A DNA stretch of 36,669 bases, taken from NCBI GenBank assembly GCA_016926955.1, contig JAFGNN010000041.1:1-36669 (forward strand), in the 5' to 3' direction. This DNA is from Spirochaetales bacterium. Its GTDB lineage: Bacteria; Spirochaetota; Spirochaetia; Treponematales; UBA12059. The position numbers were made by a program, and so were the translations under genes. The notes beneath the pieces were generated by a model, which was not told where the DNA came from, searched no databases, and worked only from the letters and a program-made list of their open reading frames with translations. This document shows, piece by piece, positions 29,594 to 34,543 of this stretch (the stretch's first letter is position 1; the number at the start of each line of letters is the position of its first letter).

Positions 29594-30073
29594 TCAGACC
29601 AAATCGGCGTAGCGCGCTTCGGAACCCTGCGCCCCCAGCGCCTCCAGGAGCGACTCGGGCGCGATGACGATCTGCAGGCCGCGCGCGCCTCCGCTCACGG
29701 AGATGCGATCGTGGAGCTGGGCCGCCTCCTCCACGAACACCGGTAGCGGCTTCTTCGTGGCCAGCGGCGAGCAGCCGCCCCGGACGTAGCCTGTCGCGCC
29801 GAGGAGCTCCTTGAGCGGCAGGAGCTCGACGGCCTTCTCCCCCGAGGCCTTTGCCGCCTTGCGGAGGTCGAGTTCCTCCCCGCCGGGCACAACGCAAAGA
29901 AAGACGCCCGCGCGCTCTCCGCGCAGGGCGAGGGTCTTGTATACCCGTTCGAGGTCTTGGCCGGTCTTTGCGGCCACAGCAGCCGCAGAGAGGTCCTCCT
30001 CGTCCACGTCATATGAGAGGAGCTCGAAGGCCGCGCCCCGGGACTCGAGAAAGCGGACCGCGTTGGTCTTCAT
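29594..30073 (-). CDS. ybaK: Aminoacyl-tRNA deacylase, YbaK/EbsC family (Cys-tRNA(Pro) deacylase type)
   Basis: 159 residues, the usual length. The family removes wrongly attached amino acids from tRNA, YbaK acting on Cys-tRNA(Pro). Signatures: 'KTNAVRFLESRGAAFELLSYDVDEEDLSAAAVA' N-terminal region, the active-site lysine segment 'RVYKTLALRG' (about 43-52), 'VFLCVVPGGEELDLRKAAKASG', and 'LGATGYVRGGCSPLATKKPLPVFVEE' with the GCSP loop. Cytoplasmic. It stands alone upstream of the minisatellite and trpB on the same strand and after the FNR-like gene, with 24 bp between. Confidence 0.92.
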   Translation of the reverse strand: MKTNAVRFLESRGAAFELLSYDVDEEDLSAAAVAAKTGQDLERVYKTLALRGERAGVFLCVVPGGEELDLRKAAKASGEKAVELLPLKELLGATGYVRGGCSPLATKKPLPVFVEEAAQLHDRISVSGGARGLQIVIAPESLLEALGAQGSEARYADLV

Positions 30074-30097: not shown

Positions 30098-30844
30098 TCA
30101 GGACCCGACCCGCGCCGCGCGTCGGGCGATGCCCAGCGCGCGGAGAGCGCGCCGCACAGCCTTCGCCATGGGCGGCGGCCCCGAAACGAACCAGCGGGTC
30201 GCGGGATCGGCGAGGAAGGCTCCCGAAAGTCGCGCGAGCGACTCCGCGTCGGGTCGCCCGCGCTCCCCGTCCCAGAGCGGATCATGCGTCAGCGCGGCCT
30301 TCCAGGAAAAGCCGGGAAAGGTTCTCGCGTACGCGCCGAAGTCCCGGGAGGGCCCGAGTTCCTCGCGTGTTTTCGCCCACCAGAGCAACAAGGTCGGTCG
30401 AGCGGCATCGGCCCAGGCCAGATGCTCGAGCAGGCCCAGGAACGCGGCGATGCCAAAGCCTCCCGCCACCAGGACGAGGGGACCGCCCGGATCCCGCGAA
30501 CCCAGCCAGGTCGGACCGAAGGGCGCGCCGACCAACGCCGCGCAGTCCGGATCCAGGCCCGACTCGACGGCGGCAACGAAGCGGAGCGTCCAATCGTCCA
30601 CGGCCTTGACCAGGAACTCCATCCGGCCGCGCTCGTACGGAGGCGAGACTACGGGAAACGCGCGAGCCCCGCGCGGAGCCGACGGGGCCACGAGCGCGAG
30701 CATCGCGGACTGACCCGGCGCCCAAGCCGGGAACTCGCCCTCGACCGGCCGCAGCGAAAGGCGCGCGGTGCGGGGTCCCTCCATGAGCGCCCGCGATACG
30801 ACGCATGGAACGCGGGCGGCAACGGAGAGCACCAAGGACAACAT
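30098..30844 (-). CDS. FNR-like FAD/NAD(P)H oxidoreductase
   Basis: 248 residues. The N-terminal half forms a ferredoxin-reductase-type FAD barrel with 'WAPGQSAML' and the flavin motif 'RAFPVVSPPY' (about 60-69). The C-terminal half has a nucleotide-binding 'LVLVAGGFGIAAFLGLLEHL' segment (about 125-144), and ends with 'RWFVSGPPPMAKAVRRAL' near 217-234. It resembles the PyrK / sulfide dehydrogenase beta group, but the C-terminal cysteine cluster for a 2Fe-2S centre is absent, so electrons must go to a separate partner. The ATG overlaps the GH57 stop as TGATG, so it is translationally coupled to a carbohydrate-active protein, an unexpected combination. Substrate and partner unknown. Confidence 0.75.
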   Translation of the reverse strand: MLSLVLSVAARVPCVVSRALMEGPRTARLSLRPVEGEFPAWAPGQSAMLALVAPSAPRGARAFPVVSPPYERGRMEFLVKAVDDWTLRFVAAVESGLDPDCAALVGAPFGPTWLGSRDPGGPLVLVAGGFGIAAFLGLLEHLAWADAARPTLLLWWAKTREELGPSRDFGAYARTFPGFSWKAALTHDPLWDGERGRPDAESLARLSGAFLADPATRWFVSGPPPMAKAVRRALRALGIARRAARVGS

Positions 30845-32439
30845 CAGCGCCTCGGGCGGAACATGCGATAGTTTATGAAGGGGAACAGGTTGTTGCGCTT
30901 CTCGAGGCGGGTTATCCACTCGGTCCCGACCTGGTTGGCGCAGAGCATCTCGTAGATGCGATTGAAATTGGTAACCGCGTCCTCGACCTGCTTGCGGGCG
31001 AAGGAGCTCGACTTGCCGGCGCGCATGAGCAAGGCCCAGTCGGAGCACTGCGCCAGGAGAGTCTCGCGGGCGGCCTGGTTGAGCACGCGCTCCTTGAGGC
31101 CCGACTCGTTCGGGAAGCGCTCCGCCAGCTCGGCCATGCGCTCGGCCACCTTGATGGCGTGGCGGTAGATCCAGTCGTTGGAGCCGTTGAGCCAGACGTC
31201 CGCGTAGCCGCCGTCGCCCCAGGACGAGAACTCGGGCACCGATTCCTGCGAATCGGGGTGGAGCTTCAGGTATTCCTCGAGCGTGACGAATGAGAGCTTC
31301 TTGCCGTCATTGGCGCGACGGAACAGGGCCTCAAGCCAGAGCGGTCCTTCGAACCACCAGTGGCCGAAAAGCTCCGCGTCATAGGGGCAGACCATCAGCG
31401 GCGGACGGTCCAGATGGGGGCCCGCGGCCTCCGCTTGGGCGGAGCGGTCGCGAAGGAAGGCCTCCGCGTGCTCGAAGGCGCGGGTATACGCGGCACTCGG
31501 GTCGTAGGGCCGCTTCTGGTCTGTCTTTCCCGTCACCGCCCAGTACTTGAAACCGGTGAAAATTCGGGTGCGGTCCTCTTCGATGAAGGGAGCGACGTAG
31601 TCCAGTCCCAGGTCGAAGCCGATGTCGCGGTAGAAATCGCGGTAAACGCTGTCCGCGGGGTAGCCCGAGTTCTCTGACCAGACTGCGTCGGTGGAGTCCA
31701 CGTCGCGGATGAAGAACGAAAGTCCGTTCGCAGAGCGCGTCGGCGCGTAGGAGCCGCGCTCCGGCACCGGATCGCCGAGCAGGGCGCCCCGCGTCGAGAC
31801 GACGGTGAACTGGAGGTTGTTGGCCTTCAGCACGTCCTCCGCGCCGGGATACCAGCCGAGCTGGGGCATCCAGAAGCCCGCGGGCAGCTTGCCGAAGGCC
31901 GCGCGGTGTCCGGCCACCGCCGTCTCGACCTGGGCGGGCACCACTTGGCCCACGTCGCGGAAGATGGGCAGGAAGGCGTGGGTGGCGCCGCTCGTCATGA
32001 TGTCGATACGGCCCTTCTTGTAATAGAAGTCGAAGGCCGCCACAAGGTCGCGGCCATAAAGGCCGACGAAGTCGTCGCGGTCCATGCGATAGAGGTTTTC
32101 GTAGAGGCGGGCAAGGTTGTGGAAGGTCGGCTCGCCCGCGGTGCGCTCGAGCTCCCGGCGCGAAAGCTCGAGCTGCTGGTCTAGAAATCCGACGTAGCGT
32201 TCCTTGAGGAGCTCGTCCCCGAGCATGGCTATGAGGGTCGGCGAGAGCACGAGGGTGAAGCGGTACGGAACCGCGTCGGCCTCGAGCCTGCGCATGAGCC
32301 TCAATAGGGGCAGATAGGTCTCGCTCATGGCTTCGAAGAGCCAGCGCTCCTCGAGGAAGCGCGGATAATCGGGCTGCCTGACAAAGGGTAGGTGGGCGTT
32401 GAGCACCAGGGCGATGTAGCCGCTCCGGTCCGCGTTCAT
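30844..32439 (-). CDS. GH57 / DUF1957 branching-enzyme-like protein with nucleophile Glu replaced by Gln
   Basis: 531 residues, full length for the GH57 1,4-alpha-glucan branching enzymes (AmyC, TTHA1902 type). Conserved GH57 regions: region 1 'LNAHLPFVR' (13-21), region 2 'TSGATHAFLP' (149-158), region 3 'GFWMPQLGWYPG' (188-199), region 4 'CPYDAELFGHWWFEG' (351-365) with catalytic Asp354, and region 5 'SSWGDGGYADVWLNG'. The C-terminal helical DUF1957 domain follows. In active enzymes region 3 reads W-x-P-E and the Glu is the nucleophile; here the codon at 31861-31863 is CAG, giving Gln193. Either the protein is a non-catalytic glucan-binding relative or it uses another residue. Its ATG overlaps the DUF4912 gene stop (ATGA). 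Cytoplasmic. Confidence 0.88.
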   Translation of the reverse strand: MNADRSGYIALVLNAHLPFVRQPDYPRFLEERWLFEAMSETYLPLLRLMRRLEADAVPYRFTLVLSPTLIAMLGDELLKERYVGFLDQQLELSRRELERTAGEPTFHNLARLYENLYRMDRDDFVGLYGRDLVAAFDFYYKKGRIDIMTSGATHAFLPIFRDVGQVVPAQVETAVAGHRAAFGKLPAGFWMPQLGWYPGAEDVLKANNLQFTVVSTRGALLGDPVPERGSYAPTRSANGLSFFIRDVDSTDAVWSENSGYPADSVYRDFYRDIGFDLGLDYVAPFIEEDRTRIFTGFKYWAVTGKTDQKRPYDPSAAYTRAFEHAEAFLRDRSAQAEAAGPHLDRPPLMVCPYDAELFGHWWFEGPLWLEALFRRANDGKKLSFVTLEEYLKLHPDSQESVPEFSSWGDGGYADVWLNGSNDWIYRHAIKVAERMAELAERFPNESGLKERVLNQAARETLLAQCSDWALLMRAGKSSSFARKQVEDAVTNFNRIYEMLCANQVGTEWITRLEKRNNLFPFINYRMFRPRR

Positions 32440-33143
32440 CGTGATTCACCTCCGCCGAGTATGCGCGACGGATGCCGCTCGTCCTCGGGCTCAATGCGCA
32501 GGCCTTGGATACCCGAAAGCCGCAGCAGCTCGGCGGTCCTCGCCTCGAGCCCGGAAAGGGGCTTGGAGAGGGAGGCTCGGGGGGTCCTGACCGCGTTCGA
32601 CCTGGCGAGCGCCTTCTGCCGGCCGCCGAGACGCACGCAGATGTCGATGCGGTAGCGCGAATCCTGGTCCGGCAGGTTGAGGTACCACTGGACGTCCTCG
32701 TCACCCACCGCGATGTCGAAGTGGTCTGACGACGAACCTTCTCCACGCGGCTCCTCGACCACGCGGAGGAAGTAGCCCGAGAAGTCAGGGTCGCCTTCGA
32801 AACGGTCTCGGTCCTCGTCCTTTATGTCCCAGTAGGCAAAGGCCCAAGCGGGATCGCGAACCAGCACCTTGATGGCGGTTTCGTTGTAGCGACGCTCGAT
32901 GCAGGGCGCCGCGTCGAGCGATGCGTCGAAGTCGTCGAGTTCGGACCCCGAGTACTTCTTCTCTTCGACGTGGACGGGAGCGTCCCGATCCACGCGGCGA
33001 TCCTCGTGGTCTTCCTCGAAGGCCTCGACGAGGGTCTCCTGGACCACGGGCCGCTCCAGCCCCGGCGGCAGGTCGAGACCCATCTTCTCGGCGAGCGCGT
33101 AGAGCGCTTCCATCGAAAGGTCGTTCAGCTTGTCGGCGTTCAC
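32436..33143 (-). CDS. DUF4912 protein with Rho-N/SAP-like N-terminus
   Basis: 235 residues from a GTG at 33143. Residues 3-40 ('LNDLSMEALYALAEKMGLDLPPGL') look like a helix-extension-helix (Rho-N/SAP-like) motif seen at the start of spirochaete DUF4912 proteins. After a charged linker (45-75) comes the DUF4912 domain: 'NETAIKVLVRDPAWAFAYWDIKDEDRDRF', 'GYFLRVVEE', 'WYLNLPDQDSRYRIDICVR' (about 87-190). The domain resembles a carbohydrate-binding beta-sandwich and its gene regularly neighbours DUF1957. Function unknown; glycogen-related binding is inference. The annotated frame could start at a TTG at 33179, but that TTG belongs to a TTGACA -35 box, so the GTG is preferred. The stop overlaps the GH57 start. 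Confidence 0.75.
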   Translation of the reverse strand: MNADKLNDLSMEALYALAEKMGLDLPPGLERPVVQETLVEAFEEDHEDRRVDRDAPVHVEEKKYSGSELDDFDASLDAAPCIERRYNETAIKVLVRDPAWAFAYWDIKDEDRDRFEGDPDFSGYFLRVVEEPRGEGSSSDHFDIAVGDEDVQWYLNLPDQDSRYRIDICVRLGGRQKALARSNAVRTPRASLSKPLSGLEARTAELLRLSGIQGLRIEPEDERHPSRILGGGESR

Positions 33144-33149
33144 GGGCGC

Positions 33150-33179
33150 ATAGTGGCCGATCGCCCGGAGGGGTGTCAA
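33150..33179 (-). promoter_or_regulatory. Candidate promoter of the DUF4912-GH57-FNR operon, apparently leaderless
   Basis: On the minus strand a perfect TTGACA (33179-33174), 18-bp spacer, CACTAT (33155-33150), then six bases (GCGCCC) to the GTG start at 33143. No ribosome binding site fits between. Confidence 0.5.
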
Positions 33180-33208: not shown

Positions 33209-34543
33209 TCAGGCCTGGTCCGTCTTCGTACCTTCGGCGCCGGGGCTCCGGGGAGTCCGGCGCCGGCGGCGGCGGCGCTTCGCGGCGGTTCCGCCGGAGC
33301 GGTCCGGGGCGGCCGCGTCCTCATCGAAGGGCGTTGGCCTCGAGGCGCGGACCTTCCCGGGCGCGCTTCCGCGCCCCTCGTCGGCGGGCTTCGGAGCCGA
33401 AGCCCGGGAAGCGGCCTCGACGGCCGTGTCGGCGGCCTGCCCTTCGTCGGCCGAGCGGCCACTCTTCCGCCGGCGCCTGGAACGCTTCCGCTTCTGGTGC
33501 GGAGCCGACTCGGGGGCCTTGTAGACGAGCCGCACCGCGGCTTCGAGCTCGACGCGCGGCATAACGAGGGGTTCGAGCAGGGCGCGGGCGGCCGCCACGG
33601 CAGCCCTCCAGGACTCGTTCGGGTCGGAATGGACGGGCGGGGAACAGACAGCTTCGACGTCGGCCCTGACCACGTAGGAAAGCAGTCGTGAGAGCGTTTT
33701 GTCGCGCGTTTCGTTCACGGTTTCATCCAGCTCGGCGAGCGCCTTCCCGAACGAGGCCTTGAATGCCGGTTCCGAGTCGCAACGAGCGGCGAGGGCGGGC
33801 ATGAAGCGCGGCAAGAGCTTGAAGCGCGCGAGTCCCTCGAAGATGGAAGCGGCGCGCCCGGAGCCGAGCACCTTCGCCAGCTCCTCGGACAATCGCGAAC
33901 TGGACGCTTCCGAAAGCAGTCGGGCGTCGCGTCTCATGGCCATCGCGAGGGCGAGCGGTATCCTGCACCCGGTGGTGGCGGAGTACTTTACGGCGCGGAA
34001 CATGCGCACCGGATCTTCCCGGAAGATGGTGGCGAGAGGAATGACCGGCTTGATCCGCTTCGCCATGACATCCTTGAAACCGCCCACATAGTCGACAAGG
34101 AGTTGTCCGATCGGATCGTAGTAGAGGGCGTTCATGGTGAAGTCGCGCCGGAGCGCGTCCTCGTCTATGGTGCCGTAGGTATTGCCCACCGTGCCGTCCT
34201 TGATGGACCGGAAGGTGGAAACCTCGTAGATGTGGGGACCGGCGTAGACGTGGACCAGGCGGAAGCGGCGCCCGATGACGCGGGAGTTGTGGAAGATCCG
34301 CCTGATTCGGGGCGGCTGGGCGTCCGTGACGATGTCGAAATCCTTCGGATGCCGGCCGAGCAGGAGGTCGCGCACGGCGCCGCCGACGATGTAGGCATCA
34401 TGTCCGGAGGCCCTGAGGCGCTCGACGATACGGAATGCGTCCGGGTCGATGTCCCTTGAATCGATCCGGTGCTCGCGCTCCTCGTAGACCAGAGCCTTCC
34501 TGACCGGCTTCCCCTCGGAATCCTTGCTGTAGCGTGTGAGCAC
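33209..34543 (-). CDS. pcnB: Poly(A) polymerase / CCA-adding nucleotidyltransferase (PcnB type) with basic tail
   Basis: 444 residues from a GTG at 34543 (AGAGG upstream). Class II nucleotidyltransferase: 'AYIVGGAVRDLLLGRHPKDFDIVTDA' (50-75, catalytic Asp68 and Asp70), 'RFRLVHVYAG', 'YEVSTFR', 'ALRRDFTMNALYYD', 'VGGFKDVMAKRI' and 'REDPVRMFRAVKYSA'. The 'GRRFRLVHV' and 'IEVSTFR' arrangement plus the N-terminal 'RIDSRDIDPDAFRIVERL' are PcnB-like. It adds A residues to RNA 3' ends or CCA to tRNA; the two activities cannot be separated by eye. The last 110 residues are of low complexity with two arginine clusters (KRKRSRRRRK near 354-363 and KRRRRRRR near 424-431), likely an RNA-binding tail. Confidence 0.88.
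   Translation of the reverse strand: MLTRYSKDSEGKPVRKALVYEEREHRIDSRDIDPDAFRIVERLRASGHDAYIVGGAVRDLLLGRHPKDFDIVTDAQPPRIRRIFHNSRVIGRRFRLVHVYAGPHIYEVSTFRSIKDGTVGNTYGTIDEDALRRDFTMNALYYDPIGQLLVDYVGGFKDVMAKRIKPVIPLATIFREDPVRMFRAVKYSATTGCRIPLALAMAMRRDARLLSEASSSRLSEELAKVLGSGRAASIFEGLARFKLLPRFMPALAARCDSEPAFKASFGKALAELDETVNETRDKTLSRLLSYVVRADVEAVCSPPVHSDPNESWRAAVAAARALLEPLVMPRVELEAAVRLVYKAPESAPHQKRKRSRRRRKSGRSADEGQAADTAVEAASRASAPKPADEGRGSAPGKVRASRPTPFDEDAAAPDRSGGTAAKRRRRRRRTPRSPGAEGTKTDQA

Follow-up and report, generated by a model that had tools for sequence, protein, structure and literature searches.

A GH57 branching-enzyme-like protein of spirochaetes with glutamine at the nucleophile position, a predicted pseudoenzyme whose gene is paired with a DUF4912 gene

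The window (the whole stretch of 36,669 nucleotides analyzed here) contains, on the reverse strand at 30844-32439, a gene with an ATG start for a GH57 branching-enzyme-like (AmyC-type) protein of 531 aa that is predicted to be catalytically dead. The protein consists of a GH57 barrel and a BE_C helical domain (PF03065, 84.3 bits; PF09210, 114.7 bits; both above the Pfam cut-off). Directly upstream on the same strand (32436-33179) lies a gene for a protein of about 247 aa with an uncertain start codon, which belongs to the DUF4912 family (PF16258, 95.1 bits against a cut-off of 29.4 bits). Its stop codon shares an ATGA at 32436-32439 with the start codon of the GH57-like gene, an arrangement to be expected if the two genes are translationally coupled. 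The following gene (30098-30847, reverse strand) encodes a ferredoxin/flavin-reductase-like protein (PF00175), and its ATG at 30847-30845 again overlaps the stop codon of the GH57-like gene (ATGA, 30844-30847). Joined by these successive overlaps, the DUF4912, GH57-like and reductase-like genes probably form one operon. On the same strand, a gene for a pcnB-like poly(A) polymerase is located upstream (33209-34543; TIGR01942, 313 bits) and one for a YbaK/EbsC Cys-tRNA(Pro) deacylase downstream (29594-30073; TIGR00011, 160 bits), the latter being the probable last gene of the run. Within the family of the window (f1), pcnB was found at 23 of 26 loci, the reductase-like gene at 17 and ybaK at 16.

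The closest solved relative of the GH57-like protein is AmyC of Thermotoga maritima (PDB 2b5d; 415 bits over residues 7-527, phmmer). An AlphaFold2 model (pLDDT 92.3, pTM 0.92) superposes on AmyC with a Z-score of 51.1 and 1.8 Å over 512 residues (VIA-align), and on TT1467 with a Z-score of 45. The incomplete (beta/alpha)7 barrel followed by a helical domain that defines GH57 is thus intact. The NCBIfam equivalog cut-offs for active GH57 branching enzymes are missed (NF041566, 292 vs 920 bits; NF041133, 246 vs 1000 bits). Window protein and AmyC share fold, domain order, the acid/base aspartate (Asp349) and most groove residues, but the window protein has Gln for Glu185, Asn for His10, Leu for Cys186 and Trp for Tyr188.

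The sequence-only reading had placed a glutamine at the nucleophile position, so that the group forming the glycosyl-enzyme intermediate would be missing. Both the phmmer and the family alignments bear this out: Q193, with the codon CAG at 31861-31863 (reverse complement of ctg), corresponds to Glu185 of AmyC, the WMPQL of the window being paired with WLAEC. It lies within GFWMPQLGWYPG (residues 188-199, 31843-31878). We aligned homologues at this position across the window's clade, consisting of two families (f1 and f4) with 31 scorable sampled members. They carry Gln in 28 cases (24 CAG and four CAA codons), His in two and Asn in one; Glu was found in none. The kept acid/base aspartate, Asp354 (31378-31380, reverse strand), aligns with Asp349 of AmyC and is Asp in 31 of 31 members, in agreement with the same reading. 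Its statement that all other regions are intact does not hold. His10 of AmyC (CSR-1) polarizes the acid/base (active-site residues of GH57 branching enzymes are tabulated in PMC6616209, Table 1). Its equivalent is Asn14 in the window (32398-32400, reverse strand). Each of the 31 clade members has Asn here, and all homologues outside the clade have His.

Other fixed or nearly fixed differences from the intact homologues are Leu194 for Cys186, Trp196 for Tyr188 and Arg217 for His209. The clade-fixed differences cluster around the nucleophile (Gln193, Leu194 and Trp196), with Asn14 and Arg217 in addition. Judged by alignment, two catalytic residues are replaced, not one, while most putative glucan-contact residues are kept. 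In AmyC numbering, H12, W29, R237, F261, D349, W402, W411 and D463 are conserved in all 31 members; W356, S462 and F466 are variable. When a conserved position is defined as one with the same residue in at least 95% of the intact homologues, and the nucleophile and the acid are excluded from the pocket set, the clade keeps the ancestral residue at 96% of conserved pocket positions vs 92% of other conserved positions. The earlier claim that the substrate site was left in place is therefore largely right.

Among the clade-specific acidic columns, we found no sequence evidence for a compensating nucleophile. There are only five such columns (137, 256, 403, 409, and 486), none of them beside the nucleophile in sequence. 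E403 (31231-31233, reverse strand) is a glutamate in 31 of 31 members and uncommon outside the clade. Of the five columns, it alone has a tabulated groove residue nearby in the sequence, namely the aromatic gatekeeper W407 (Trp402 of AmyC) four positions further on. From this position, E403 might be proposed as a new acid, which is only speculative.

All 58 sampled genomes of the order have a homologue. In nearly every case it forms a single uninterrupted full-length reading frame, and the fragments are mostly found at the ends of contigs. Pairwise Nei-Gojobori dN/dS values, where computable, range from 0.035 to 0.19 in f1, from 0.026 to 0.043 in f4 and from 0.10 to 0.15 in Treponema, some pairs being inflated by a stretch of upstream non-coding frame and two f1 pairs being saturated. 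The gene is under purifying selection in the clade. In the class Spirochaetia, it was found in 165 of 198 genomes. On a tree of these 165 sequences, from which the two catalytic columns had been removed, the intact and lost catalytic states are separated by at least 12 parsimony changes, or 17 maximal all-lost clades when regain is disallowed; these counts are approximate, since the tree comes from a fast LG+G4 search and is moderately supported in some parts. The nucleophile loss is thus not peculiar to the window protein: it is fixed in two families and counts among the roughly 12 or more times that catalytic residues were lost independently in the class. All 68 non-spirochaete loci carry His/Glu/Asp, in a set drawn by pattern from the best 80 loci, where 46 carry a scan pattern not overlapping the catalytic motifs, 15 carry that pattern only, and a bias toward conserved sequences remains. 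The idea that the change of His10 to Asn came first and predisposed to the loss of Glu or Asp was unsupported, with too few independent contrasts. One genome also carries a second, intact Glu/Asp GH57 gene with its own DUF4912 gene on a 3.5 kb contig (L059; G002:C174). It groups outside the spirochaetes and probably stems from contamination or was transferred recently.

The genus Treponema (f3) shows a different state. Residues at the two catalytic positions are Ser/Ser, Tyr/Pro, Tyr/Glu, Tyr/Asn, Ser/Arg, Glu/Ser, or Glu/Pro, and the ancestral residue is kept at 19% of conserved pocket positions vs 67% of other conserved positions, which indicates that the scaffold outlives the pocket. The RDPxW...YW core motif of DUF4912 is kept in Treponema despite the lost GH57 pocket. 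Taken together, the percentages of both groups make the window's clade look inactive yet sugar-shaped, and Treponema like a scaffold without a site. One genome of 1,139,633 bases (G032), which we take to be Treponema pallidum from its proA/tmk ... cheA-cheW-cheX-cheY gene order, retains the DUF4912-GH57 pair and has no match for GlgA, GlgC, GH13 GlgB, GH77, or phosphorylase (GlgP). A literature search on Treponema with GH57 or branching enzyme, and on TP0357-TP0360, gave nothing relevant.

In spirochaetes, the immediate upstream neighbour of the GH57 gene is a DUF4912 gene in the same orientation at 150 of 152 loci, and the remaining two loci are at contig ends. Among the best 80 loci counted in a scan of named genomes (about 20 phyla), the same arrangement was found at 67, and seven of the other 13 are at contig ends. 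Genomes without the GH57 gene lack DUF4912 (20 of 20). Of ten genomes with the GH57 gene, nine have it by the Pfam model; in the tenth (G078, locus L154), a custom profile recovered a divergent copy. The two genes are a near-obligate pair and are lost together. In the model of the DUF4912 protein (pLDDT 80.7), a helical N-terminal region (residues 15-66, high confidence) accompanies an FN3-like beta-sandwich (residues 100-202). The fold search lists generic FN3-like matches only (Z up to 10.4) and so gives no support for a known carbohydrate-binding module, although the protein may still be one. No solved structure with sequence similarity to this protein was found, nor any literature giving DUF4912 (PF16258) a function. 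A Rho_N/SAP-like N-terminal domain (PF07498) is unmatched in the DUF4912 protein of the window and weakly matched, below the cut-off (E 0.11), in the relative L175. The two proteins presumably form a physical complex, and the DUF4912 pairing, which the sequence-only reading had overlooked, is the strongest lead to the function of the GH57-like protein.

We consider the window protein to be, with fair probability, a pseudoenzyme that in this clade most likely binds and holds glucan as a subunit acting with the DUF4912 protein, and that in Treponema serves as no more than a scaffold. As both the nucleophile (Glu to Gln) and the polarizer of the acid/base (His to Asn) are replaced, the AmyC-type GH57 fold would be unable to form the glycosyl-enzyme intermediate. 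An alpha-1,4-glucan chain would still be held in the old groove, and the non-hydrolyzing subunit would act with the product of the upstream gene to sense or to anchor cytoplasmic glucan. In Treponema, this pair would persist without the sugar pocket. From the residues kept and lost, catalysis by the window protein appears unlikely, glucan binding in its clade probable and a scaffold function in Treponema likewise probable; we infer the absent catalysis, the kept glucan binding, and the sensor or anchor role in this protein. An analogy comes from PDB entries 9k7c and 9jlr, retrieved by the fold search, in which the E256Q mutant of the GH57 amylopullulanase of Aquifex aeolicus was crystallized with maltopentaose. 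This suggests that a GH57 groove with a Glu-to-Gln-type change can hold a glucan. We infer that E256 is the nucleophile from the E256Q/D352N pair in the entry titles; if so, the natural change in the window would be one used for trapping substrate. The Aquifex protein shares with the window protein a Glu-to-Gln change in a GH57 enzyme and a glucan groove, but it is engineered, belongs to another GH57 subfamily (17-18% identity) and presumably has an intact polarizer. What counts against a pseudoenzyme is the retention of Asp354 and of much the greater part of the groove, beyond the strict need of pure binding.

A wider role may be considered from the surroundings of the pair. In most other Spirochaetia families, it is located directly before mraZ, rsmH, ftsL, and murF of the division/cell-wall cluster, with the cluster 0.1-2 kb downstream of the GH57 gene (L095-L154 and other loci of the class). 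This linkage was seen neither outside the spirochaetes nor in f1, f3, f4, and f5, four families of the window's order. It may point to an envelope role. DUF4912-GH57 could then be an old module of two proteins whose essential task has always gone beyond catalysis and which, in spirochaetes, couples cytoplasmic polysaccharide or the GH57 scaffold to envelope growth or division. We put this forward tentatively, on the grounds of the position before mraZ, about a dozen catalytic losses without loss of the gene, and the retention of the pair in the T. pallidum-like genome without the tested glycogen genes.

Somewhat less probable, and in our view doubtful, is that the protein is a pure scaffold in the window's clade as well, with sugar binding already irrelevant and the pocket kept through slow drift only. 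Scaffold and DUF4912 do outlast the pocket in Treponema, and the pair is still there in the T. pallidum-like genome, where GlgA, GlgC, GH13 GlgB, GH77, and GlgP are all missing. However, free drift would not leave the pocket positions of the clade at least as ancestral as the other conserved positions.

An unusual catalysis on alpha-glucan has to be weighed against the glycogen genes. The window's genome has GlgA, GlgC (2-3 bits below the strict cut-off), GlgX, and two GH77 enzymes, and most of the 58 genomes of the order likewise have GlgA and GlgC, as well as GlgX where it was looked for. GH13 GlgB was found above the family cut-off in none of the 58, which leaves the branching activity unaccounted for, makes the GH57-like protein a candidate and also counts against a pseudoenzyme. 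Either glycogen is branched by another protein, or it is little branched, or the GH57-like protein has an unusual activity. In the last case, with Asp354 as acid/base, the place of the nucleophile would be taken by water, by phosphate or by some other residue (e.g., Glu403), and the protein would supply the missing branching or hydrolysis. The missing GlgB is the main argument for this, next to the kept Asp354 and groove residues and the new glutamate at 403 in every clade member. Yet the likelihood of unusual catalysis is lowered by the loss of the polarizer in 31 of 31 members, and the presence of His and Asn at the nucleophile position within the clade speaks against a fixed replacement chemistry. 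By homology, Glu403 would lie near a groove-lining loop, off strand beta4. Treponema is also without GlgB, yet its pocket is destroyed, and the T. pallidum-like genome keeps the pair in spite of its missing glycogen genes. We therefore regard unusual catalysis as quite improbable.

Nearly every genome of the order encodes a second GH57 protein of about 630-680 aa (4-alpha-glucanotransferase-like; L241 at about 27.8 kb of G000:C85, homologues L242-L260), in which the CSR-4 acid region is unrecognizable and the nucleophile Glu is variable; going by their residues, neither of the order's two GH57 proteins may be an active enzyme any longer, and this would extend to the genome of T. pallidum size. 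In addition, a Spirochaetia genome without the DUF4912-GH57 pair carries a canonical GH13 GlgB (G147:C35:12484-14340; 906 bits), hinting at a replacement.

A decaying gene or a sequencing or assembly error at the codon, for which we found nothing except the substitution itself, has a negligible probability and is ruled out, as the earlier reading had held for decay, by a homologue in 58 of 58 genomes (nearly always with a full-length frame), Gln, His, or Asn with mixed codons in 31 genomes, and low dN/dS.

The window protein belongs, as far as the description of the group goes, with the branching-enzyme-like (GBE-like) proteins of GH57 that lack catalytic residues, which one study represents by 60 sequences (Martinovicova and Janecek, 2018; PMC6037648). 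That source, in its part on this group, agrees with the sequence-only reading that such proteins are known and their role is not; the text on the group differs in having no spirochaete, partner gene, polarizer loss, or analysis of repeated origin. The CE4 pseudoenzyme BA3943 (PDB 7bkf), listed by the fold search only, likewise keeps the barrel of a carbohydrate enzyme without its catalytic residues, but is of another family and chemistry. The GBE-like proteins, together with 4AGT-like ones, were reportedly taken up again in a Genetica paper of 2020. The clade-fixed combination of Glu-to-Gln and His-to-Asn, the repeated losses, and the near-obligate partner appear to be new.

With a fixed natural Glu-to-Gln change and a near-obligate partner, an unexplained class of ‘dead’ GH57 proteins becomes a testable case. 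The spirochaetes would offer a series of grades that starts with the intact enzyme, passes through a probable lectin and ends with a scaffold devoid of a pocket. The apparent T. pallidum has a conserved gene pair without an assigned role. The annotation of the GH57-like genes of the order as branching enzymes is probably wrong, in which case the order would be left without an assigned glycogen-branching enzyme. The fixed replacement and the constant gene pairing suggest that binding or holding something, and no longer the cutting and joining of sugar chains, is what the protein does today.
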